Shown piece after piece: positions 6,143 to 18,986 of a stretch of 45,221 nucleotides of DNA (positions are counted from its first letter, which is position 1; every line of letters begins with the position of its first letter). The DNA is taken from contig JABXIS010000035.1 of NCBI GenBank assembly GCA_013372975.1, positions 1 to 45,221 on the forward strand, in the 5' to 3' direction. Origin of the DNA: Alphaproteobacteria bacterium (lineage in GTDB: Bacteria; Pseudomonadota; Alphaproteobacteria; Sphingomonadales; Kordiimonadaceae). The notes beneath the pieces are model-generated. The model saw only the letters and a list, made by a program, of their open reading frames with translations. It did no database searches and had not been told where the DNA came from. A program made the position numbers and the translations under genes.

Positions 6143-6219
6143 GGCCCCGTAGCTCAGCTGGATAGAGCACCAGATTCCTAATCTGGGGGCCACAGGTTCG
6201 AATCCTGTCGGGGTCACCA
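6143..6219 (+). tRNA. tRNA-Arg(CCT)
   Basis: This is a full 77-nt cloverleaf. The acceptor arm GGCCCCG (6143-6149) pairs with CGGGGTC (6209-6215), followed by discriminator A and an encoded CCA. The anticodon stem CCAGA/TCTGG encloses the loop TTCCTAA, giving anticodon CCT, which reads AGG. The T-arm has GGTTCGAATCC. The 3' 49 bases serve as the left attachment site of the island, so integration preserved the whole gene. Confidence 0.97.
6171..6219 (+). repeat. Left attachment site (49-bp direct repeat, tRNA 3' end)
   Basis: Positions 6171-6219 match 18938-18986 base for base, from CAGATTCC through the encoded CCA. The flanking bases differ on both sides. It covers the anticodon arm to the 3' end, the usual crossover region for tRNA-directed tyrosine integrases. 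Confidence 0.92.
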
Positions 6220-6266: not shown

Positions 6267-6286
6267 TGTCCGCACTATGTCCGCAA
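6267..6286 (+). repeat. Left integrase arm-type site candidate
   Basis: TGTCCGCACTATGTCCGCAA occurs here and, identically and in the same orientation, at 18781-18800 near the other end of the island. Each copy contains two TGTCCGCA units 11 bp apart, about one helical turn. Paired repeats inside both ends of an island are typical of integrase or excisionase arm-binding sites. The role is inferred. Confidence 0.6.
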
Positions 6287-6338: not shown

Positions 6339-6755
6339 TCAGTCTCTACTCAATATTTCAAGTTTCCATCCATCTTCATTTATAACGATCACAGCTCCGT
6401 AACGGTAGCTGAGTGGGGCCTGAAACCAGTACCGCTGGATTTTCTCAAGTTCACCCGGAATATCAGCCTCACGACGCTTGATCTCGACTATCAAAAGGTT
6501 CCGATCGTGTGTTCCCCGTTCGTGGATGATGATGTCGGGTCTCATGCGGTTCATGTCTGGCTTGGCCACATCTACGTCGCAGTGATAGTCTGAGAAAACT
6601 TCACCGATCTCGTTCGCCAAATGGTGGTTAATGTTCCATTCGGTTTGGTTTGTGGCTGAGGTGAACCTGAAAAGATCGGCTTGGTTGGTGAAAAGCTGAT
6701 TTATCGCTTGTTCGAGCTTTGATTGAATATCATTTTGTGACACTTGGGGTTCCAT
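6339..6755 (-). CDS. Small PD-(D/E)XK nuclease-like protein
   Basis: This 138-aa protein contains RPDIIIHERG near residues 72-81 and LLIVEIKRR near 87-95. These place Asp74, Glu91 and Lys93 in the spacing of a PD-(D/E)XK nuclease core, with possible earlier acidic residues at Glu39 or Glu49. It is about the size of a bare nuclease domain. It is the last gene of the five-gene cargo operon, 26 bp after the methyltransferase stop, without a strong ribosome binding site of its own. Together with the methyltransferase it could be the cutting half of a restriction-modification pair. Alternatively it could be a helper endonuclease of the HerA/NurA complex. Substrate unknown. Confidence 0.8.
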   Translation of the reverse strand: MEPQVSQNDIQSKLEQAINQLFTNQADLFRFTSATNQTEWNINHHLANEIGEVFSDYHCDVDVAKPDMNRMRPDIIIHERGTHDRNLLIVEIKRREADIPGELEKIQRYWFQAPLSYRYGAVIVINEDGWKLEILSRD

Positions 6756-6781
6756 CGAACAAACGTGTTAAGGGTATTAGC

Positions 6782-7906
6782 TCATCTGGTTAGGACAATA
6801 TCAACTTCGCCCTTTTCAGTGGATTTGTTGCCGTGTAGCTCGGTTTGAGTTCGTTTTTGGAAAGGTTTGTCTGTAATCTCAACTTTGTGATTGGGGAAAC
6901 ACTCGGTTAGGACGTTCAGTGTGGTTTCGAAGGTGTATTGGCGCTTATCCGTTCTAACGTAAACTGTACTTTCATCTGCCATCAGTTTTGAGCATTTCCC
7001 AAAAACATCCTCGAGAAGCAGCCGGTACTTTTCTCTATTTACGAACCGCCCTTTGTTAGGTTCTTGAATGGTTTTTGGTTGGTCAGGTCCCCCAAGGAGC
7101 CAAAGGCGTAACCACTGATCGGCATGATAATCAGTAACATCGCAGTAGGGAGGGGACGTGAATAGCAGTGAGAATTTCACACCGGTCTTTTCAGATTTTC
7201 CGACCAATCGTTCGAGTTCAACTGTACTGTCACCAAAAATTACACGGCTTTCGAATACTCTTGGCTGCCCCTTCATGTAGCGCCAATCAATCTTTCTGGT
7301 AATTAGTTCTCTTGGATCTAATTCCGGAGGGCTTGAAAAACCATTCTCTTGCCACCACCTCACAGAATAGTCGGGGCCCATAGCTTTGGTCATCCTCATC
7401 TGGTTGGAAAGCCCTTCGCCGATCTTTCCATGCAGGTAGACCAATATGATGGACATAAGCGTTGCATCTGCCGCGTTGTGTTTCCAATTTAGATTGCGGC
7501 GGGCTGAAATCAGGAACTTGAGAACGGCGTCACAATAACACATTCGGAAGAAGCGCGGCATTTTCCGCATTGCTTCACCATAATACCGCTTTTTTTCATC
7601 TATTTCCTTAAGCCGAGATAGCACAGCAGCTTTTGCTGCAGGCTCAAGTTTGACGGCACCATACAACCAGCCAACTGGATTGATCTCTATTCCTAAGCTA
7701 TGCCTGCCTAACACTCCCCCGGCATAGATACTGGAGCCTCTACCGGCGAACGGATCTAGAATCAAGTCGCCCTGTTTCGAGTATTTTTTCACTACGTCAA
7801 AGGCAAAATCTACTGGAAACATCGCATAATAGGGGCCGAAGCGTGCCCATCTAGCCTCCGGTGTGGTAAATCGTGTAAGGTCGATATTCTCGGCGGGGAC
7901 AGACAC
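6782..7906 (-). CDS. DNA methyltransferase (amino-methyltransferase, motif I before motif IV)
   Basis: This 374-aa protein carries the S-adenosylmethionine motif DPFAGRGSS at about 51-59 and the catalytic TSPPY at about 250-254. It should methylate an exocyclic amino group of adenine or cytosine in DNA. The FxGxG motif precedes SPPY, whereas the beta-class enzymes most common in this family have the reverse order. The roughly 190 residues between the motifs probably hold the target-recognition part. The start is GTG at 7906, whose G is shared with the TAG stop of the NurA-like gene, so translation is tightly coupled. It probably marks host DNA as self for the associated nucleases. Confidence 0.92.
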   Translation of the reverse strand: MSVPAENIDLTRFTTPEARWARFGPYYAMFPVDFAFDVVKKYSKQGDLILDPFAGRGSSIYAGGVLGRHSLGIEINPVGWLYGAVKLEPAAKAAVLSRLKEIDEKKRYYGEAMRKMPRFFRMCYCDAVLKFLISARRNLNWKHNAADATLMSIILVYLHGKIGEGLSNQMRMTKAMGPDYSVRWWQENGFSSPPELDPRELITRKIDWRYMKGQPRVFESRVIFGDSTVELERLVGKSEKTGVKFSLLFTSPPYCDVTDYHADQWLRLWLLGGPDQPKTIQEPNKGRFVNREKYRLLLEDVFGKCSKLMADESTVYVRTDKRQYTFETTLNVLTECFPNHKVEITDKPFQKRTQTELHGNKSTEKGEVDIVLTR

Positions 7907-9276
7907 TAGCTTCGTTCCCTGATTTCTTTGGATATGTTGTCAAAAATTGGTTTGCCCAGATTGAGTGGAATTGCAGCTTCCGAATGTGCAGATGCAAGAG
8001 GCATCGCTGAATTTCCATATCTAGTTGATACCAATTCGTCCAATAGGTTTAGACAATCTTTTAATCTGGGAAATTGCTCTGGGAAAGCCGTTTCTACGTT
8101 AGATTGATATTCGTTGAATGAAGCAACTGATGCAACTACGCGAAGTCCATGTTTCGTTTTGTATAGAAACTTTCTCCCAAATGCCGTGTCTTTTAGGTAG
8201 ATAAATTGGGGGTCATCATTCAGCACGATGTTCTTACAGATATATTTATTGGTTGGCAGAAAGACAGAGTGACTTGGAAAGTTGCCACTCGCCCCGTCTT
8301 TCTTGGTGTCTAACTCTGCAAAGTGATTTACGAAATTACCAGAGCGTTCAATACCCAAAATTAGCAATTGGCAAGACGCCTGTTTTTTTGCTTCAGCATT
8401 AATGCGTGCAAGCTCCACCCTAAAACTTTTTGCTAGCCAAGAAGGCGCACTAAAAACAGTTAAAGAGCCTTCTATGAAAAAAGCGAGTTCTCGGAAAAGA
8501 CGATAGCCATCTTCTCTTTGCTCTAGCGTCCTTAGAATGTGGATAAGCCTAAGTTTCTTCAAAGCCTCTTTGATCTGGCCAAACATTTCCCCGCTGGTTC
8601 CCGAAGGGTTCATGAGTTCATGTAATCGGAGCGCATCGGTTGAATAGAGTTTACCGTTACAATGGTCGCATTGGTATTCGCCGAAGTCGAGTTTTAGGTC
8701 CGCGTCGCATGTGTCGTGCGGGCATTTAGGCAGGCGTGTCTTTTCTGAGGAAGCTATCCTGATGCGAAGCATTTCCTCGTAGGTTGCTAAAAGTGTTTCT
8801 CCACCATCTGATATACGTTGACTGGAAAATTCCTCGTATAGAGTCCGTCTCAGTGAAGATTCGGCTGAGACTTCTCCGTCTAATACGGCGTTGCAGCCCA
8901 CGAAGACACTATCTAGCGAGCTAGCAGACTCTGTTTTGCGGAACTCTCTGGGATCAATAAACTCCTGCTTTTCGAGTTGTCGGATTTTATCGATTAGAAT
9001 TATGACCGATGAAACAGTAACGTAGCCTATTTCGGAGCCAGGAAAGCCCGTTTCAATTTTGGAGACACTGTAATCTCCATCAATGGCAATCAATAAGGAA
9101 GGTACCCAATTGGAGTCGTCTAAATCGCTTGAACCGATCGCGACGGTATCCCAAGAGATCGGTTCCTCATTGTGTCTAACCTTGATCCTTTCTTGAATAT
9201 TTTTGATGCGTTCGTTGGACAAGATGCGTCGAAGGGGTTCATATGAAACACCTGGAGTATGAGAGAACTCAGACAT
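7906..9276 (-). CDS. NurA-like nuclease with an inserted zinc ribbon
   Basis: This 456-aa protein has the NurA-type opening LLIAIDGDYSV (Asp about 66) followed by a beta strand segment, and C-terminal segments QLLILGIERSG and GRKFLYKTKHGLRVV that fit the rest of a NurA fold. Between them is a zinc ribbon with cysteines at about 185, 190, 203 and 206, followed by KLYSTDALRLHE. NurA enzymes are manganese-dependent 5'-3' nucleases that work in complex with HerA ATPases. The gene overlaps the upstream HerA-type gene by 8 bp and the downstream methyltransferase by 1 bp, which supports one complex. The NurA assignment rests on motif layout and neighbour. Confidence 0.84.
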   Translation of the reverse strand: MSEFSHTPGVSYEPLRRILSNERIKNIQERIKVRHNEEPISWDTVAIGSSDLDDSNWVPSLLIAIDGDYSVSKIETGFPGSEIGYVTVSSVIILIDKIRQLEKQEFIDPREFRKTESASSLDSVFVGCNAVLDGEVSAESSLRRTLYEEFSSQRISDGGETLLATYEEMLRIRIASSEKTRLPKCPHDTCDADLKLDFGEYQCDHCNGKLYSTDALRLHELMNPSGTSGEMFGQIKEALKKLRLIHILRTLEQREDGYRLFRELAFFIEGSLTVFSAPSWLAKSFRVELARINAEAKKQASCQLLILGIERSGNFVNHFAELDTKKDGASGNFPSHSVFLPTNKYICKNIVLNDDPQFIYLKDTAFGRKFLYKTKHGLRVVASVASFNEYQSNVETAFPEQFPRLKDCLNLLDELVSTRYGNSAMPLASAHSEAAIPLNLGKPIFDNISKEIRERS

Positions 9277-11476
9277 TGGTTTTTGCCTCTACATTGAACC
9301 TGTCGACCTGAACTGGAACAACGAATGGACTGCTAAGAGTCTTAACACGCAAGAATCCTTTGTCTTGGGCTCTTCTGATAGAGGGTTCGAAATCTGCAAA
9401 ATCATAAAACTTGCAAAGCTCTTTTGTTTCATCCGAGTTGTTTAAGTGCGCAATGAACCAGTTCGCAGTGTTCTTAAGGATATTGCGTTGAATGCTGCTA
9501 ACCTCTTGTGTGGCGTATACGAGTCCAATCTTATACTTTCCACCTTCCTTGGCGGTACGAACCCAGACATCACTTAGGTCTAGGTCGCGGCCACTCGGAA
9601 GAATGTTGTGAGCTTCTTCAACGTAGACAAGAATGTCCTTTGGCCGTTGGCCACTTCTAAAAGATTGTTGGTTACCGTGAAATATCGCACTCATGATTCT
9701 TCGAGCCGAAGCCTTGTTCAAAACCTCGTCTCCGCTAGACTGGTCGACGATTACCAGCTTCCCTTTCAGCAGATGCTCATATATCTCTGCAGCGTAGTCA
9801 GCTTCCGAATCTGGCGCATGCTGTGGTTCGACCCTGCCGATCAAGTTGCTACCTTTGGAGCGCGAAAACATTTCCAAGAGGCGCTCTAGGTCGGGATCAA
9901 GGAAGGCTTGACCAGAATCTGACGTTGAAGCGTATTCAGCGTTATAGTCAGCAAAAGCTTGTGTTTTTAAGAAATAGAAGAGGCCTTCAAACGCGCCTGT
10001 CAGGGCTTCCCAGCCGACCCCGTCTTTCCGAAGGTTTGCGGCTGCCTGCTTTATGAAAGTTTCTTTTCTCTTGTCAGTCAACTCAATGGTGGACATCAGA
10101 TTTTGGAGGGTCTTGCTAAATAGATAGCGGTCCTTTGTAAGTTTTATTCTTGGTCGGAGATTTTGTGGAGGTTTAAGACCAGCCTTGAAAAGAAGGGCTC
10201 TGTACGCAAGCGTTCTGCGAAGAAACCGTTTTAATTCTTCCCAGAACTCCCCTTCAGTATCAAAATCTTCTTTCTGCGGCTCGTCAAATGTGACTTGGCG
10301 GAAGTTATCGAAATATTGTGCGGTTTCGGATGCAAGAGCATTATCGATAATGTTCTTGCCAACTTGTAGCATGCCATCTGAGTAGAAATTGAGGCGCATC
10401 AATCGCCGTTTTTGATCTTGCGGGTCCACAGAGTGCGGGTGCAGGCCATAGATAACAACTTCATTTTCGCGGAACGAGTTGGGGTTGTCAGAGCCAGAGT
10501 TTTTGTACATCTCCTCCCAAATATTTTTGAGCGCCCTAGGATTTTCTCGACCGTCTGAATCCTGGGTGTTTTCGTTAGCATATTCGCCATTTGGGTCAAA
10601 AATAACCTGGCCTATTCGCACAGGCTTGGTGTCGGAATCATCGTTAGATCGAGCGCGAAGCTCGTACACAGACTTAGCTATGACCTTTGTGGTGTTAGAT
10701 TTCCCGGTTCGCGTCATTCCAAATAACGCAGTTTTCTGAGCCAAGAGGTCGGTCGGATATAGAAATGTCGTAACATCTTCGGTGCCTTGATGGCTGCGGT
10801 TTGTAGATGCGTATCTTACCGTTCCAAAGGGGACGCTTTTTGCGCTGCCATACTCTTCAATATGTTCCTGGAGGCTTGCAGGATCTGCGTAGTTGACTAT
10901 CGTTTTGAGGGCATCGCTGTTTGGTTTGTAAACTTTGAAGCCTCGATTGGAATAGAAATTGGATAAGTCTGTGCCAAATTTAAGGGAAAGCCTGTCTTGA
11001 GAATTAGAAGCATTCTTTTCCAAAAAGAATGTGCCGATGACTCTGCACGCAACGCCAGCGTACCCAAAAACATCTCTTGTTTTGCCGTCCATAGCTTCTT
11101 TTGCATCCCAGTGGATGCCGGTTTCGCCGCTTACTCTTTGCGCAGTTTCCACCCTAACTCGTTCAGCGTCTCGATCCTGCGGCAATGATGTTGCGTCCAT
11201 GACCCTTAGAAGGATCATGCTGGAGTCTTCTTCTCGAAAGTCTATTTTGTCATTCGCTTGCTTCCTGGTGGCAATTAGGAAACACATATTCGGTATGCCC
11301 CCCACTTTCATCCTATAGAAATCGTGGACCAGTATCTTTGCATGCTCATAGTTGAGAGAAAACATATCCCCTACATATTGCTCTGGCTGAATTAGACCGC
11401 TAAAAATCCGCCCAGCTTCGATTTCATACTGCTCTTGACTGTGCTGGTTGACGGTGTTTTCGAAAGCGTTACTCAT
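9269..11476 (-). CDS. HerA-type hexameric DNA-translocating ATPase
   Basis: This 735-aa ATPase has a beta-rich N-terminal region of about 230 residues (HAS-barrel-like). A Walker A GMTRTGKS follows at about 253-260, then DPNGEY near 294-299, and Walker B ILVYVEEAH near 615-623. The trailing motif VRTAKEGGKYKIGLVYATQE contains the expected arginine finger and sensor region of HerA/FtsK-like motors. It likely pumps DNA into or past the NurA-like nuclease. About 300 residues between Walker A and B are longer than in archaeal HerA and may bind partners. It overlaps the upstream PIN gene by 4 bp (ATGA) and the NurA-like gene by 8 bp. Confidence 0.93.
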   Translation of the reverse strand: MSNAFENTVNQHSQEQYEIEAGRIFSGLIQPEQYVGDMFSLNYEHAKILVHDFYRMKVGGIPNMCFLIATRKQANDKIDFREEDSSMILLRVMDATSLPQDRDAERVRVETAQRVSGETGIHWDAKEAMDGKTRDVFGYAGVACRVIGTFFLEKNASNSQDRLSLKFGTDLSNFYSNRGFKVYKPNSDALKTIVNYADPASLQEHIEEYGSAKSVPFGTVRYASTNRSHQGTEDVTTFLYPTDLLAQKTALFGMTRTGKSNTTKVIAKSVYELRARSNDDSDTKPVRIGQVIFDPNGEYANENTQDSDGRENPRALKNIWEEMYKNSGSDNPNSFRENEVVIYGLHPHSVDPQDQKRRLMRLNFYSDGMLQVGKNIIDNALASETAQYFDNFRQVTFDEPQKEDFDTEGEFWEELKRFLRRTLAYRALLFKAGLKPPQNLRPRIKLTKDRYLFSKTLQNLMSTIELTDKRKETFIKQAAANLRKDGVGWEALTGAFEGLFYFLKTQAFADYNAEYASTSDSGQAFLDPDLERLLEMFSRSKGSNLIGRVEPQHAPDSEADYAAEIYEHLLKGKLVIVDQSSGDEVLNKASARRIMSAIFHGNQQSFRSGQRPKDILVYVEEAHNILPSGRDLDLSDVWVRTAKEGGKYKIGLVYATQEVSSIQRNILKNTANWFIAHLNNSDETKELCKFYDFADFEPSIRRAQDKGFLRVKTLSSPFVVPVQVDRFNVEAKTNV

Positions 11477-12489
11477 TCGGCATCTCTCTTTTTGGAAGCT
11501 GAGATATATTCATCTACGATTTGATCAAAACTCATCGGCTTTAAAGCATCGGAGACTATGCTTTTTGAGTCTGGTGGAGCGGAATATTCGCCGAGAGACA
11601 GGTCGTCCTCATCTGCTAGGCGAACGTTGCGAATCTCATCGATGGCGACCTGGGAGGTGTTTTGCTGCAGGTTCTTGTTAGCGAGTTCAAGAAAGCGGTC
11701 GGCTTGATATATTTGAACGCGTTGTCCAGTAAGGTTGGAGAACTCTTTTAGCAATTCAGGCCGCGGGCTAATTGTCCGGCCCTTAAACTTGTACCACCAG
11801 TCTTCTTTAAGATCGTCAGTCACGAAAATAAGAGGTTTCTTCGAGACTTTGGTGTATTCAACTACTTGTTTCCATACGATTAGGTCACCGTACAATGATC
11901 GATTGTCCCGGTCTTTCTTGTCTTTTTGATCCATATAGCCGGGTGGAACTTTTTCCTCGTACCGGCGCTTTCCTTCTTTGAAGGCAGCCTCCAGTTCCGT
12001 GGGTGCAAAATCGTCTCCAACCTTCCCTTGTAACAGCAATGTTATGCGATCGAGAATTGGATCTGTGTCTAGATAATTGGGGTGATCTTTCTCAATTCGA
12101 TCAAGATCTCGGCTTATAGCTGCAAAGGCAGATTCAATTTGCGTTTTTAGCTCGTCCGCATGCAAATATGGGTGCTTCTTAAATCCATTAAGTTTGTTTT
12201 CTATTTCATTCCTTTTGCTTTGAAGCGTAGCCCTTATTTCTTGGTAAGCTTCCATTTGTGCATTGATCACAGTTAACCGGTTCTTGTGATACTCAAATGC
12301 AGCTTGATAGCTTATCCATAGCCTATCTGAGACCTTCTCCAACAGTTTGAAAAATGCCTGTCGAGTAGAGGGGGAATACCGATACAGGTTGAGGAGCACG
12401 TTCGCGTCAAAACTAAAAACGCCAGTTTCCCAATGTCGTTTGGTCGAAGCTTGGCTTGGCGGGTAATACTCTCTGAATTGGTTCTTCAA
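11473..12489 (-). CDS. PIN-like domain protein, first gene of the cargo operon
   Basis: This 338-aa protein opens with a PIN-like nuclease core. VFSFDANVLLNLYR holds Asp28, AAFEYHKNR holds Glu66, YGDLIVW holds Asp202 and IFVTDDLKEDWW holds Asp225-226, so a full acidic set is present. It resembles the PIN_8 group (PF18476) found near ATPases in defence islands. Its likely activity is cutting RNA or structured DNA. A helical segment at about 75-145 looks like a coiled coil. The start is TTG at 12489, supported by GAGGA 7 bp upstream. Its TGA stop overlaps the ATG of the HerA-type gene. An effector role triggered by the complex is an inference. Confidence 0.88.
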   Translation of the reverse strand: MKNQFREYYPPSQASTKRHWETGVFSFDANVLLNLYRYSPSTRQAFFKLLEKVSDRLWISYQAAFEYHKNRLTVINAQMEAYQEIRATLQSKRNEIENKLNGFKKHPYLHADELKTQIESAFAAISRDLDRIEKDHPNYLDTDPILDRITLLLQGKVGDDFAPTELEAAFKEGKRRYEEKVPPGYMDQKDKKDRDNRSLYGDLIVWKQVVEYTKVSKKPLIFVTDDLKEDWWYKFKGRTISPRPELLKEFSNLTGQRVQIYQADRFLELANKNLQQNTSQVAIDEIRNVRLADEDDLSLGEYSAPPDSKSIVSDALKPMSFDQIVDEYISASKKRDAE

Positions 12490-12997: not shown

Positions 12998-13267
12998 ATG
13001 AGTGAAATGGCAATAGACGTATTGACGCTTATCTTTGGATTTATGGCGCTCTTCTTTGCCGCTACGTTGCTCAGGGCTGTGTATTTTTCTCTGACCCGCG
13101 AAGCGGTTGTCACGGCACGTTACTCTCAGTTTATCCGAGGATTCTGGTCCAATATGCTGGGGTTGAACTTGCCTGACCTCAATGGTGATATGCACGATGG
13201 CATCATTTGGAAAAAGGGATCTAAGAAACCTATTCCTAGTGCAAAGGCAGCCCACCCACTTCAGTAA
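12998..13267 (+). CDS. Small membrane protein, first gene of the divergent module
   Basis: This 89-aa protein has one clear membrane helix at about residues 6-28, then a basic and polar tail that should lie in the cytoplasm. I do not recognise the family. The start is supported by GGAGA 8 bp upstream. It is 26 bp ahead of a 446-aa membrane protein, and both follow the same candidate promoter, so they are probably co-expressed. Inside a defence-type island such a pair could be a membrane effector with its partner or inhibitor, but nothing in this short sequence proves that. Confidence 0.65.
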   Translation: MSEMAIDVLTLIFGFMALFFAATLLRAVYFSLTREAVVTARYSQFIRGFWSNMLGLNLPDLNGDMHDGIIWKKGSKKPIPSAKAAHPLQ

Positions 13268-13293: not shown

Positions 13294-14634
13294 ATGTCGT
13301 TAAAGACCTATTACGGGTGGATTCCGACCATCGGAGGGCGCCTGTTATTCAGCGAAATCGGAACAAAAACTAACCCTAGGTCTCGAGCTTTTAATAAAAG
13401 CGATAGAGACCAAGCCTTGGTCTTTGTTGAGCAGATCAAGAAGACGTCGGACGAATTGTTTCCCTTCACATTTCTCCTCCCGCTCTGGAATTTTATTGCA
13501 TCATTGCTAAATTATCCCTTGAGATGGCTGAAGTGGAGGGAATTTCCTGTATATGAACGTTGGACTGTTCGCCTGATAGCAGGAAAGGTGTCGAAAACCG
13601 GCAATGATGTTAGTTTTCACGGCGTGGTTTTGGTGTTTCCTAAATACGACTACCCGAGAAAGCTTGCCCACCAGATGTTTGACAGCCATCAAGTTCTAAG
13701 GCGAGAAAACTTCAAAAGGATATATCGCAGGGCTGATTGGCGATATTTTTTCCGTCTACAAAAGAATGGGGTGGTTAGGCTGCAGGAACGCTTTGCACCA
13801 GACTTTCAGGCCGTTCTTTCAAGCGATGTCGATGAAGAGCATCGGAGGGCATCAATTTCGAAGCAGGCTTTCTACTTCCTCAGAGATGCGTGCCATACTC
13901 ATAGACATCACGATCCAAATAATGATCAGCATACTACCATACATGACAAGGATAACTCAAAATGGCCACGTGAGGTGTTGCGGTTACTGTATCGCGCAAC
14001 AACAAAACACTCACGAGCGGGAGCTAGCCGCGAAGACCTAAGGCAGGCACTCGGCATCTTGGCTTATACAAGGTCATTTAAAAAAATAGCAGAAGCCGAT
14101 CCTGCAATTGGTCCAGACTTTTCTGGATATGAAGGCATAGATGGTCAGCAAATCGCTGATTCAATAAATATAAGAATTGCAGATATTGTTGAACTAGATA
14201 GAGAAAAAGACGCGGCAAGTTTAAAATGGCTCGGACCTTGGATTGCGTCCCTTTCTTTAATGATAGGATTTGTCGCACTTGGTACCTTTTTGATTAACCT
14301 CTGGGCTAATCCAGCGATAACAGGAGGCACGGTGGCCCCTGAGCACTTGAATGCACTTCAGTCGTATCAGCCAACACCTTGGCTGCTGACAATCTCGAAA
14401 TATCTTGCTGAAAATTTCGTTATTGTTGCTACAGGTTGGTTGCTCTTTTTGATGGCGTTTGTGGGAAAGATACGCTCGAGAATCTTGCGGTTTTTTCAAG
14501 TTCAAGATCTCTTTAAGGCTACTCTTGGGCTTTATGGCTTGCCAAAGATTCTCATGAACTCCTTTCTGATTTTGGCTGCGAGTTCAATAATTTATTTTGT
14601 GGTTCCTCATATGATACGGGTGTTTACTGGGTAG
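13294..14634 (+). CDS. Multi-pass membrane protein of unknown function with a His-rich motif
   Basis: This 446-aa protein has a large N-terminal part of about 300 residues with one possible hydrophobic hairpin near 55-75. It ends in three likely membrane helices near 308-330, 370-388 and 418-440. A motif CHTHRHHDPNND lies near 204-215, followed by TTIHD; the histidines and aspartates could bind a metal. After it, a helical stretch includes ALGILAYTRSF. I do not recognise the family. The start has a strong GGGGGA box. Its neighbours suggest a defence role, for instance a membrane-acting effector, but a housekeeping role for the island is also possible. Confidence 0.8.
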   Translation: MSLKTYYGWIPTIGGRLLFSEIGTKTNPRSRAFNKSDRDQALVFVEQIKKTSDELFPFTFLLPLWNFIASLLNYPLRWLKWREFPVYERWTVRLIAGKVSKTGNDVSFHGVVLVFPKYDYPRKLAHQMFDSHQVLRRENFKRIYRRADWRYFFRLQKNGVVRLQERFAPDFQAVLSSDVDEEHRRASISKQAFYFLRDACHTHRHHDPNNDQHTTIHDKDNSKWPREVLRLLYRATTKHSRAGASREDLRQALGILAYTRSFKKIAEADPAIGPDFSGYEGIDGQQIADSINIRIADIVELDREKDAASLKWLGPWIASLSLMIGFVALGTFLINLWANPAITGGTVAPEHLNALQSYQPTPWLLTISKYLAENFVIVATGWLLFLMAFVGKIRSRILRFFQVQDLFKATLGLYGLPKILMNSFLILAASSIIYFVVPHMIRVFTG

Positions 14635-14887: not shown

Positions 14888-16792
14888 CTACAATAGCCAG
14901 ACGTGATCTTCGTAGACTTGGATGATGCCCTTTCCCATCAGATCATTTTTGATGCGGCTCCAAGCGGTCCGTCTACTGTCGCCCTCTCCAAGTATGGACG
15001 CTTTGTCCAGGCGTTCGCGCCATTCTTTTAAGCTAACCGCCAGTACGCCATTTGGGACTTCCGGAACTGGCGGAGTGACGCCTGAGCGATCGATCAAAGA
15101 CTTTAATACATCTAAGGCGAGTTTTTGCTTATTTGAGATGGGCTGCGCCTTCTTGACTTTTGTATCGCTTGATACGGCCACTACTGTTTGCTTTGGAGAG
15201 CCGTCGGCAAATTCACCGAACCGGTGAAATTGAAGGGTGAATGCCCCAAGGTCCTCGGTGGGAATATCCTTGGCAGCTTCGATTTCAGCGACATGAATTT
15301 CCTTTGATTTAGATATCTTTATCACTAGGTCAGCAGCACCTAGCAGGGCAGAAGAGCCACGCATACCGTAGTCGCTATTCTTGCCTGCATGATGGACCAC
15401 GAGAACATGTGCCCCGGTTTCTGTCTGAAGCTTTTTACAGCCATCGATGAATTGGCCCATGTCTTCTGCAGAGTTTTCGTTGCCTCCGTTGAACGTACGA
15501 GCAAGTGTATCGATCACGATTAGCGAAGGTTTGTATCCCAGAGCCTTGCATTCATCTCTGGCAAGTGCGATGAGAGTTTCAACCTGGTCCTGCTCTCCCC
15601 TTATCCGCGGCGCGCCATCAACAAGAGCGAATGGAACATCATTGAAGCATTCACTATGAAAGCTGCGCCAGCCTTCCAAGCGCAATCTGAATCCGCGGGC
15701 TCCTTCGCCTGCCACATACACTACGCCACCTTGGTTGACCCGGCGATCGCGGTACTTGAGGCCCAGTGCAACGCGCACCGACAGATCAAGCGTGAAGAAA
15801 GTCTTACCGGCTTTGGGTTGTCCGTATACGACTGACAGGTCGCCAAGGTACAGGAGGTTTTCAATTACGTACTTTGGAGCACCTGTCAGGACAATGTTTT
15901 CGCCAATCTCAACTGTCCAAGGGTACGACCGAGAGGTCAGGGGTGTTGCCCTTTCGACTAAAGCGAAAAGGTCGGCTCTGGTGGCTCCTGCAGCAATCCA
16001 GTCGGCAACGTCCCCTTTGCGTGGCAAGTTAGGCAGCTGAACGATCTTGACGCCATTTGCGATGCGTAAGACGGAATTGGCGACTTGCTTGGCATGGTCT
16101 TCACCTGCCTTGTCGTTATCAGGAAAAATGACGACCTTCGCCCCCTTCAGGTGCTGAGCATGATGGTCGTGCCATTTTCTTGCGCCGCCTGCATTACAAG
16201 TTGCGACCAGGCCGAGTTGTTCAAGTGCATGGACACATTTTTCACCCTCGACAACATATATTGCTTCGCCGTCTTTGATGGCAGCTAAAACCTGTGGCAG
16301 CCGATACGGTGGCATTTCAATCCCACTGGTTCCTGAAACCCATTGACCCTTTTCATAGCGTGCTTGGCTGAAGGTTTTTCCACCATCTTCCTTATCCTGG
16401 CGCGTGACCTTTAAGACAGGTTGGCCTTCCCAGTTTTGGTAGATGTACTCTTGCAATTTCGCTTTCCGCGGTAACCGTTCATTCCCATGCTCATTTGAAG
16501 GAAGAAACCCATTTTGTTTCAGCCAGCATATTGCCTCAGCGTGGTTGCAGTTAAGCTTCCGGGAAACGAGGGCGGCAATGCCGCCCCCTTCATTGTTTTC
16601 ATAGTCAAACCAAACGCCCTTTTCAGGCTTAATTGATAGCGAACCGTTGGCGCCGTACCGAATGTCATTGGTGCGGCTTTTTTTTGGGTTTGGTTCACCC
16701 AGAAGGAGCTGCGATACGGCAAGGATGTCCAGATTATTCAATTCGTCTTTGCCCAGCGAAGCAGGTCCGTTGTTCAGGTCGAGAGGAAACAT
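14888..16792 (-). CDS. Toprim plus RecA-like primase-helicase (RepA-type replication protein)
   Basis: This 634-aa protein has an N-terminal primase-associated region with GSLSIKPEKGVWFDY, then a Toprim domain with VVEGEK near 180-185 and FPDND near 223-227. An AAA_25/RepA-like ATPase follows with Walker A GQPKAGKT at about 324-331, Walker B LIVIDT near 424-429 and VVHHAGK near 465. The C-terminus looks like a small winged-helix domain. Such fused proteins start and unwind replication of prophages, satellites and plasmids. It is the third gene after alpA in one direction, with an 18-bp gap to the zinc-ribbon gene. It suggests that the excised island can replicate. Confidence 0.92.
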   Translation of the reverse strand: MFPLDLNNGPASLGKDELNNLDILAVSQLLLGEPNPKKSRTNDIRYGANGSLSIKPEKGVWFDYENNEGGGIAALVSRKLNCNHAEAICWLKQNGFLPSNEHGNERLPRKAKLQEYIYQNWEGQPVLKVTRQDKEDGGKTFSQARYEKGQWVSGTSGIEMPPYRLPQVLAAIKDGEAIYVVEGEKCVHALEQLGLVATCNAGGARKWHDHHAQHLKGAKVVIFPDNDKAGEDHAKQVANSVLRIANGVKIVQLPNLPRKGDVADWIAAGATRADLFALVERATPLTSRSYPWTVEIGENIVLTGAPKYVIENLLYLGDLSVVYGQPKAGKTFFTLDLSVRVALGLKYRDRRVNQGGVVYVAGEGARGFRLRLEGWRSFHSECFNDVPFALVDGAPRIRGEQDQVETLIALARDECKALGYKPSLIVIDTLARTFNGGNENSAEDMGQFIDGCKKLQTETGAHVLVVHHAGKNSDYGMRGSSALLGAADLVIKISKSKEIHVAEIEAAKDIPTEDLGAFTLQFHRFGEFADGSPKQTVVAVSSDTKVKKAQPISNKQKLALDVLKSLIDRSGVTPPVPEVPNGVLAVSLKEWRERLDKASILGEGDSRRTAWSRIKNDLMGKGIIQVYEDHVWLL

Positions 16793-17633: not shown

Positions 17634-18776
17634 TCAATTCTTGAATTGGCCAGCTATTGAGTTGGTGGCAGCACGAAGTGGATCGTCATAGAGGTGGGCG
17701 TAACGCGCTGTCGTTTGTGCTTGGCTGTGGCCGAGCAGGGCGCCGATGATGGGCAGTGAATGACCTGCAGAGACGAGCAGCGAAGCATATGTGTGCCGAA
17801 GGTCATGGATGCGTAGGTCGTGAAGGTTTGCCATCTTGCAGACCGACTGCCAGAAGCGCTTGATGTTCTTAATCGGTTGATCTGGTGCTGATCCCGGAAA
17901 AACAAAAATTGAATTGCCTGCAGCCTTCTCAATTTCCTTCAAAAGGACAACCGCAGCGTCCGACAGAGGAACTCGGTGAAGCTTCCTTTGTTTGGTGTGC
18001 GACGACGGCTTGGTCCACACGCCATTCTTCAAATCAACCTGATCCCATGTGGCATTCAGGACTTCACCCCGCCTGGCACCGGTCAAAAGCAATATACGAA
18101 CAACGTTTGCCATGTTCTGATTGCGGTGGTCCGCCAGCGCTTTGTGAAGTCGTTCCATCTCATCCGTTGTTAGATAGCGCTCGCGCTTTTCTTCAGGGTT
18201 CTTTTTCACCCCAATGCAGGGGTTGTCTTTGCGGTAGCCCCACTGGACCGAAAGGCTAAACATCTTTGAAAGAAGAGCGACAACGCGGTTGGCCCGAATG
18301 GGAGTGTCTTTGGTGATCGTACGGTGAAGCCGTGAAATGTCATTAAATGAAACGTCTTCAATCGCCATTTTGCCAATCACGGGCAGAACCAGTTTGTCGA
18401 GCATTGCGACCTCATCAGTGCGGCTGGCCTCGGTCTTGCCGACTGCATGTTCTTCGAGATAGCGGCTCGCCAATTCCCGGACTAGTGAGCGGCCAGATGC
18501 GGCTTGCCGCTCAGCCAGCGGATCGTTGCCTAGATCGATCTCTCGCCTCAGTCGCTGGGCCTCATCGCGGGCCTTTGCGGTCGACCATGTAGGAAACCTT
18601 CCAATGGTGATGCGCCGCTCTTTCTGCTTGAACCGATAGTTCAGGATGAACGACTTGACGCCCTTGGCTGTGATGCGAACGCCGAACATTGGGACAGCGG
18701 AATCGTACACGATCACATTGCCGCTTTCGGGTGTTTCTAGCTTTTGGATGATCCGGTCTGAGAGCTTCTGAGCCAT
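17634..18776 (-). CDS. int: Tyrosine-recombinase integrase of the island
   Basis: This 380-aa integrase has an N-terminal DUF4102-type arm-binding domain (FGVRITAKGVKSFILNYRF), a SAM-like core-binding domain at about 95-185 and a catalytic domain. The catalytic set is Arg235 (TGARRGE), His324 and Arg327 (HDLRH), His350 (LLGH) and Tyr359 (TARYAHL), all present, so it should be active. It belongs to the P4-like/tRNA-targeting group. It reads inward from the right end, 162 bp from the right repeat. A 20-bp arm-site candidate ends 5 bp before its ATG, so the protein may repress its own synthesis. Confidence 0.96.
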   Translation of the reverse strand: MAQKLSDRIIQKLETPESGNVIVYDSAVPMFGVRITAKGVKSFILNYRFKQKERRITIGRFPTWSTAKARDEAQRLRREIDLGNDPLAERQAASGRSLVRELASRYLEEHAVGKTEASRTDEVAMLDKLVLPVIGKMAIEDVSFNDISRLHRTITKDTPIRANRVVALLSKMFSLSVQWGYRKDNPCIGVKKNPEEKRERYLTTDEMERLHKALADHRNQNMANVVRILLLTGARRGEVLNATWDQVDLKNGVWTKPSSHTKQRKLHRVPLSDAAVVLLKEIEKAAGNSIFVFPGSAPDQPIKNIKRFWQSVCKMANLHDLRIHDLRHTYASLLVSAGHSLPIIGALLGHSQAQTTARYAHLYDDPLRAATNSIAGQFKN

Positions 18777-18780
18777 TCTG

Positions 18781-18800
18781 TGTCCGCACTATGTCCGCAA
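18781..18800 (+). repeat. Right integrase arm-type site candidate
   Basis: This is an exact copy of the 20-bp site at 6267-6286 with two TGTCCGCA units. It lies directly upstream of the integrase start, so binding could also block translation or transcription of int. Confidence 0.6.
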
Positions 18801-18937: not shown

Positions 18938-18986
18938 CAGATTCCTAATCTGGGGGCCACAGGTTCGAATCCTGTCGGGGTCACCA
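18938..18986 (+). repeat. Right attachment site (49-bp direct repeat)
   Basis: This is an exact repeat of 6171-6219. It holds only the anticodon arm to the CCA of the tRNA and lacks the D-arm and 5' acceptor strand, so it cannot be a working tRNA. It marks the right border of the island. Upstream, at 18777-18937, is AT-rich DNA with no gene. Confidence 0.92.

Follow-up and report, generated by a model that had tools for sequence, protein, structure and literature searches.

The window analysed here, a stretch of 45,221 nucleotides from an alphaproteobacterium (contig JABXIS010000035.1), carries a compact operon of five leftward genes, three of which, encoding a HerA-type ATPase, a NurA-like nuclease and a DNA methyltransferase, form a conserved unit that is probably a restriction-modification variant. 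A sequence-only reading of the window had taken all five genes to be one candidate defence system, and its account of the layout was exact: the five open reading frames (ORFs) lie on the minus strand, successive genes overlapping by 4, 8 and 1 bp or, once, separated by 26 bp.

11473..12489, minus strand: PIN_8-type nuclease gene (338 amino acids; Pfam PIN_8, 7e-70)
9269..11476, minus strand: HerA/TdpA-type DNA-translocating ATPase (735 amino acids; Pfam DUF87/HerA, 1.1e-9; TdpA profile match)
7906..9276, minus strand: NurA nuclease forming a separate branch (456 amino acids; Pfam NurA, 1.2e-16)
6782..7906, minus strand: permuted N6/N4 amino-methyltransferase (374 amino acids; Pfam N6_N4_Mtase, 1.5e-12)
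6339..6755, minus strand: small PD-(D/E)XK-like protein, accessory and outside the conserved core (138 amino acids; motif and sub-threshold matches)

The conserved unit and its relatives

The identities proposed earlier for the first four proteins were borne out, with PIN_8, DUF87/HerA, NurA and N6_N4_Mtase each scoring above its own Pfam cut-off. For the 138-residue protein, the assignment as PD-(D/E)XK-like comes from the motif RPDIII...LLIVEIKR (read by eye) and from family matches that all stayed below threshold (SduA_C, 0.0087, and HSDR_N, 0.01, in Pfam; PD-Lambda-3_A, 5e-5, in PADLOC). Residue conservation was counted in alignment columns of ORFs within a set length range (81 NurA, 72 methyltransferase and 87 HerA rows, window included). 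HerA displays a Walker A motif, GMTRTGKSN, whose lysine K259 is conserved in 87/87 rows, and a Walker B motif, YVEEAH (E620, E621). In the window's NurA, D66 (conserved in 81/81 full-length rows) and H431 are kept and the second catalytic aspartate has become E269; an insert near residues 185-206 bears cysteines, of which C203 is present in 81/81 rows and the other three in 18-47 of 81. The methyltransferase has DPFAGRG from residue 51 and TSPPY at 250-254 (columns conserved in 72/72 rows), an order that indicates a permuted arrangement, and the SPPY motif suggests N4-cytosine or N6-adenine methylation. Its profile matched solved structures in the Protein Data Bank (PDB) only in the S-adenosylmethionine-binding part, and the PIN profile gave no useful match to solved structures. 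The acidic residues D28, E66, D202 and D226 of the PIN protein, which we take to be catalytic, are identical in all six aligned rows. A promoter and terminator scan returned fewer sites than shuffled sequence and was uninformative.

Relatives of the operon were collected by a pattern-based scan with a HerA alignment, which covered 84,980 species genomes; scanning genome contigs with the NurA protein by itself found none. The HerA scan yielded 482 HerA relatives (loci are numbered with the prefix L below), of which the best 80 by similarity to the window HerA entered the neighbourhood survey, with flanks of at most 10 kb, and the remaining 402 were left out. Because the loci were chosen on HerA alone, their neighbouring genes provide a fair test of association. 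The nurA gene lies downstream of herA in 78/80 loci, and the methyltransferase was found by tblastn in 74; in the six without it (L015, L019, L029, L052, L072 and L083), the contig ends within herA, within nurA or fewer than 100 bases beyond them. Spacing is likewise tight, with herA and nurA overlapping or at most 15 bp apart in 73/75 measured pairs, and nurA and the methyltransferase gene overlapping by 4 bp in 41 of the 65 pairs measured. Departures from this order are seen in L066, where the methyltransferase is placed first, and in L047, where a 281-residue ORF separates herA and nurA. Tightly linked extra genes (limits of 60 bp and 70 amino acids) occur upstream in 23/70 loci with room for one and downstream in 14/65, counts that include the core genes of L066.

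The conserved minimal unit is, thus, the three genes for HerA, NurA and the methyltransferase. Gene order did not support all five genes as one system, an outcome that the sequence-only reading had itself named as telling against the five-part set: a PIN gene precedes herA in only 5/80 loci, and a homologue of the PD-(D/E)XK protein at E (expectation value) <=1e-3 was found in 0/80 HerA loci and, among 289 genomes of the class, in the window's own genome only. The HerA tree spans 26 phylum-level names, archaea included, with many of the sequences from metagenome assemblies, and the recurrence of the three genes together in such distant phyla argues for more than chance association. At closer range the distribution is patchy: NurA was matched in 3/385 genomes of the window's class, its own included; the window's genome was the sole match in a 398-genome sample of the phylum; and full-length HerA was found in no other of 19 genomes of the genus, two of which gave short, weak matches. 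Together with the many phyla represented, this patchiness is read as horizontal spread. In a Deferribacter relative, herA is split in two, with a TnpA/TnpB element lying between the pieces (L008:4102-7900).

Among all solved chains, the best match to the HerA profile was TdpA (8e-31), with archaeal HerA (4d2i) at 2e-13. TdpA belongs to TdpABC, which we take to be an anti-phage phosphorothioation system of Thermus (PDB 8wet, 8wfd and 8y1k). Other HerA-like PDB chains scored 3e-16 or weaker, presumably including the Sir2-HerA and HerA-DUF4297 entries. The NurA profile found no significant match in the PDB; TdpB came second (E 0.23), below a chance match to a zinc finger (0.11), in a weak alignment with three collinear stretches, among them the start and the DG-LA and AH motifs. 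As to TdpC, the phosphorothioation enzyme, the family scans of operon and element proteins, in which no TdpC sequence served as a query, gave no sulfur-transfer family, and the operon has a methyltransferase instead.

An ordinary repair pair was considered and rejected on family membership: the NurA family profile misses 5/5 canonical NurAs of three genomes in which HerA-NurA-methyltransferase is also present, although PF09376 finds these canonical proteins and detects both kinds of NurA in two of the three genomes. Profile-profile comparison with canonical NurAs gave E 7e-4 and a probability of 26%, placing position 269 on the invariant aspartate and H431 on the invariant histidine. These alignments indicate that the present NurAs are related to the canonical family and form a family apart from it.

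Exchange of partners around HerA and NurA

The modification gene beside HerA-NurA is exchangeable. Among 21 viral-contig loci, 14 with only a short C-terminal HerA match were left uncounted and the seven close ones were used. In five of these seven (L093, L094, L096, L097 and L098), a D12 adenine methyltransferase adjoins or overlaps the start of HerA, with gaps of 2, -11, -32, 2 and 4 bp, respectively. Of the other two, L095 has its D12 gene 2 kb off on the opposite strand and is cut upstream, and L092 is a main-family member truncated partway through nurA. In a Vibrio temperate-phage record, a D12 (Dam-like) gene is convergent to NurA. Five genomes from the same order as L017 (L163-L167) have a methyltransferase upstream of HerA-NurA; that of L166, the one to which Pfam was applied, is an unpermuted PF01555 enzyme. 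Counting TdpABC, the modifications beside pairs of the TdpA/NurA type thus comprise two amino-methyltransferase arrangements, a Dam-like methyltransferase and phosphorothioate.

Several of these variants have additional neighbours. In L163-L167, the methyltransferase, HerA and NurA genes are followed by large co-directional genes, which in L163 and L166 encode an AAA/RecF-like ATPase and an HNH protein, and the arrangement resembles a larger, composite defence operon. On a Nostoc plasmid without an adjacent methyltransferase, an AbiTii-family gene follows HerA-NurA (L007:9213-10271). In the viral contig L094 (8097-9038 and 11980-13362), S269, Y318, F345 and Q431 replace conserved NurA residues, and a Schlafen AlbA_2 gene lies directly upstream of the D12 methyltransferase; this is perhaps a second case of effector exchange.

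Another candidate is the branch that carries the PIN gene. Genes of the PIN_8 kind are widespread elsewhere, with 62 plasmid records, and the PIN-bearing loci, with the gene before HerA, come from two Chryseobacterium, one Flavobacterium, one Cytophagales and one Micromonospora. Over the whole protein, the first four share 59-61% identity with the window PIN, and the distant Micromonospora protein shares 26%. NurA position 269 is aspartate in 76/81 rows, serine in one and glutamate in four, namely the window, L013, L014 and L017, all of them PIN-bearing. At positions 68, 126, 240, 311, 343, 353 and 361, the four glutamate rows share one residue and at least 85% of the others share another; changes of this branch at conserved positions include D269E, K311R, G361L, Y365A/S and others. 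The same four form one clade (100/100 support) in a NurA tree that left out nine distant rows, the partial NurAs of L015 and L029 being examined separately. L029, cut before position 269, shares V126 with the PIN branch and does not share D68; L015, whose HerA is close to that of L013, gave no PIN match and retains D269. The Micromonospora locus (L075) has PIN, lacks the glutamate and falls outside the PIN-NurA clade.

The HerA tree differs, setting L017 and L029 apart from L013 and L014, with the window beside the latter on a long branch of unsure placement. Identity between L013 and L017 is 60% for HerA, 83% for PIN, 68% for NurA and 95% for the methyltransferase, and homologous genes follow both operons. 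Such values point to recombination inside the operon; HerA discordance beside a shared PIN and altered NurA suggests that HerA was swapped and that PIN and NurA were retained. PIN and the altered NurA may, thus, work together, with PIN possibly a partner nuclease, a case that draws on few lineages. A search for further PIN-type NurAs in the order to which L017 belongs (395 genomes) gave six matches, of which only that of L017 itself was PIN-type; the other five were of the upstream-methyltransferase variant, all with D269. Since glutamate can serve as a metal ligand, E269 does not establish loss of NurA activity. PIN may be more than the extra effector of the earlier reading, given the aspartate-to-glutamate change in all four closely related PIN loci whose NurA is complete.

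The integrative element and its defence context

The five genes ride on a 12.8-kb integrative element inserted in the 3' end of a transfer RNA (tRNA) gene, tRNA-Arg. Features beyond the operon are as follows:

6143..6219, plus strand: tRNA-Arg (CCT), attachment site (ARAGORN, Rfam and direct repeat), with the final 49 bp (6171-6219) forming one element end
12998-13267, plus strand: ORF of 89 amino acids with a hydrophobic stretch near the N-terminus and without clear family (ORF list, hydrophobicity)
13294-14634, plus strand: ORF of 446 amino acids with three hydrophobic stretches in the last third and without clear family (ORF list, hydrophobicity)
14888..16792, minus strand: TOPRIM and AAA_25 primase/helicase, element replication gene (family matches)
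17634..18776, minus strand: tyrosine integrase of the element (family matches; phrog_1, 1e-74)
18938..18986, plus strand: second 49-bp perfect direct repeat, the other element end (repeat search)

A 25-bp piece of the 49-bp repeat has two matches in the window and 0 in 100 shuffles. Close to both element ends, at 6267-6286 and 18781-18800, lies a 20-bp perfect repeat, TGTCCGCACTATGTCCGCAA, possibly marking candidate integrase arm sites. The 1-kb rows between 6001 and 15000 (nine in all) have a G+C content of 0.40-0.47, and the remaining rows of the window 0.49-0.58. The two plus-strand ORFs are divergent, the 446-residue protein having a weak CorA-like PADLOC match (0.006), and a further ORF of 137 residues without family also lies between the 49-bp repeats. 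The tRNA was the sole match of an Rfam scan. Among members of the genus, the 49-bp tRNA end was found with short, weak matches to the right flank, and no clean empty site was seen.

Elsewhere, the HerA-NurA module is carried by plasmids and temperate-phage records as well as by this integrative element, and its surroundings are rich in defence families. The flank proteins scanned, 120 of the 196 listed, matched 154 PADLOC families at a threshold of 1e-10, as against one family for 118 control proteins drawn from arbitrary sites in ten genomes of the phylum to which the window belongs, counts that are of families rather than proteins, with a control from other taxa than the loci. Methyltransferase models made up most of the 25 families listed for the flank set, and six of ten neighbours scanned singly had no PADLOC match at 1e-4. 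Among single cases, the methyltransferase of L013 is directly followed by PDC-M62AB, and L017 carries a homologous pair; in L021, the three genes precede a methylase and a type II restriction endonuclease. As for the PD-(D/E)XK protein, its sole plasmid relative found (L168:5001-5462, 25% identity) lies about 0.9 kb from the Qat defence genes qatC and qatD on a Pukyongiella conjugative plasmid.

Proposed function and known systems

We propose that the operon core is probably an undescribed restriction-modification variant borne on mobile islands, a methyltransferase gene and a nuclease gene standing together as in restriction-modification loci in the broad sense. From gene order, conservation, motifs, homology and context, we infer activity, a self/non-self readout and protection along the following lines. 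The methyltransferase would mark host DNA. HerA, probably a hexameric ring, would load on DNA ends or unmarked DNA and pump it into a NurA dimer, which would cut it, a step proposed because of archaeal HerA-NurA and Tdp; the self mark would block loading, passage or cutting. PIN would be a branch-specific addition working with the modified NurA, and the PD-(D/E)XK protein a local add-on. The sequence-only reading had also envisaged marking by the methyltransferase and degradation of unmarked DNA by HerA-NurA, which conservation and context render probable; as for the PD-(D/E)XK protein or complex that it made the cutter of unmarked DNA, an initial cut by this protein is not required, NurA itself being the likely nuclease.

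Several observations weigh against a restriction role. The window NurA carries glutamate at the second catalytic aspartate, its match to TdpB is not significant by itself and ranks under a zinc-finger chance match, three cyanobacterial plasmid copies of the HerA-NurA pair have no adjacent methyltransferase, and the PADLOC contrast counts families, many of which one protein can match, against a control from other taxa. Moreover, DNA donation is the demonstrated role of a HerA, NurA and N4/N6 methylase set in Thermus, carried on a comparable element inserted at a tRNA (PMC5365140). That 14.8-kb element, ICEth1, lies in a tRNA 3' end and has 47-bp repeats, an integrase, NurA-like and HerA-like (TdtA) proteins and a PF01555 methylase; tdtA mutants gave no detectable transjugants, and nurA mutants gave 4-5 orders fewer (PMC5365140). 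A donation module, in which HerA pumps DNA out and NurA trims it, as proposed for TdtA, and the exported DNA is marked or protected by the methyltransferase, would suit the window element, which shares the tRNA 3' end, direct repeats and integrase of ICEth1 (PMC5365140). We nevertheless regard it as unlikely. The module also occurs in temperate-phage and viral-contig records and in archaea, flanks are rich in defence families (within the limits just given), gene order differs from the NurA-HerA-methylase order reported for Thermus, and restriction is favoured over donation because the module sits in phage records and beside defence genes. The closest solved relative, Tdp, is presumably anti-phage. 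Conceivably, one HerA-NurA machine may serve both restriction and donation.

A role in element upkeep, with HerA-NurA processing the ends of the element or its rivals in replication, excision or competition, the methyltransferase marking element DNA and host protection a side effect, would be in keeping with carriage on an integrative element, plasmids and temperate phages. It is rather improbable, as the fixed unit is the three genes and not these plus an integrase: the window integrase was matched in 2/80 loci (within flanks of up to 10 kb, where other integrase types would escape). Ordinary double-strand-break repair by HerA-NurA, for which membership of the NurA and DUF87 families could be cited, is very improbable given a family profile that misses five canonical NurAs, a near-constant methyltransferase and a sporadic distribution.

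Were the restriction reading correct, it would add a restriction type driven by a HerA ring instead of a superfamily 2 helicase. It raises the question of whether one motor-nuclease can read different DNA marks, and makes the PIN branch a natural experiment on effector exchange. A bolder, tentative and rather doubtful extension is that TdpA/NurA-type pairs are a general restriction arm reading any adjacent modification and that, in the PIN branch, PIN takes over or shares cutting with the altered NurA, the ring passing the DNA or RNA that it captures to a second, different nuclease.

The earlier view that the set matches no named system has held within the sources searched. Operon proteins gave single-protein matches among the PADLOC matches listed and no whole PADLOC system; no paper naming a HerA-NurA-methyltransferase set was found in the open-licence full-text literature, with preprints and most subscription papers outside it; and the word "NurA" is absent from the two comparative papers on HerA capture and BREX. 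MADS shares methylation and a HerA match to mad8 (6e-13), the sole mad protein among the matches listed for the operon, and was rejected, as were BREX and DISARM, with no DrmABC, PglZ or BrxC among those matches (for the methyltransferase, the best 25 of 47 families in both cases). Sir2-HerA (Nezha) and HerA-DUF4297 also combine a HerA-type ATPase with an effector enzyme but use other effectors in a pair without a methyltransferase (PMC12948488).

Closer likenesses are found among HerA-NurA machines. In Thermococcus kodakarensis, ATP-driven transport leads to a nuclease dimer in which Asp49 is reportedly required (PMC12977600). Archaeal and Deinococcus pairs share a motor feeding a nuclease dimer with an essential aspartate (PMC12977600, PMC9960219), but their NurA is of a separate family, and the word "methyltransferase" does not occur in PMC9960219. 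The ICEth1 tdtA operon of T. thermophilus HB27, likened here by description only, shares a tRNA-inserted element, direct repeats, integrase, HerA-like and NurA-like proteins and a PF01555 methylase, and differs in its NurA-HerA-methylase order, its type IIG enzyme Tth111II, the absence of any mention of PIN in the text available and its study as a DNA-transfer system (PMC5365140). TdpABC combines a modification gene, a motor and a nuclease, as does the present operon, and shares a HerA-type motor, its best solved match (8e-31), and possibly a NurA-like partner, whose motifs are collinear in a weak alignment. It differs in using phosphorothioation, where the window has a DNA methyltransferase with PIN and PD-(D/E)XK proteins added, and in its TdpB, compared with which NurA of the window type is about 77 residues longer between the first and second motif stretches. 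If the proposal is correct, archaeal end resection, Tdp phosphorothioation defence and Thermus DNA donation would be joined as one kind of machine.

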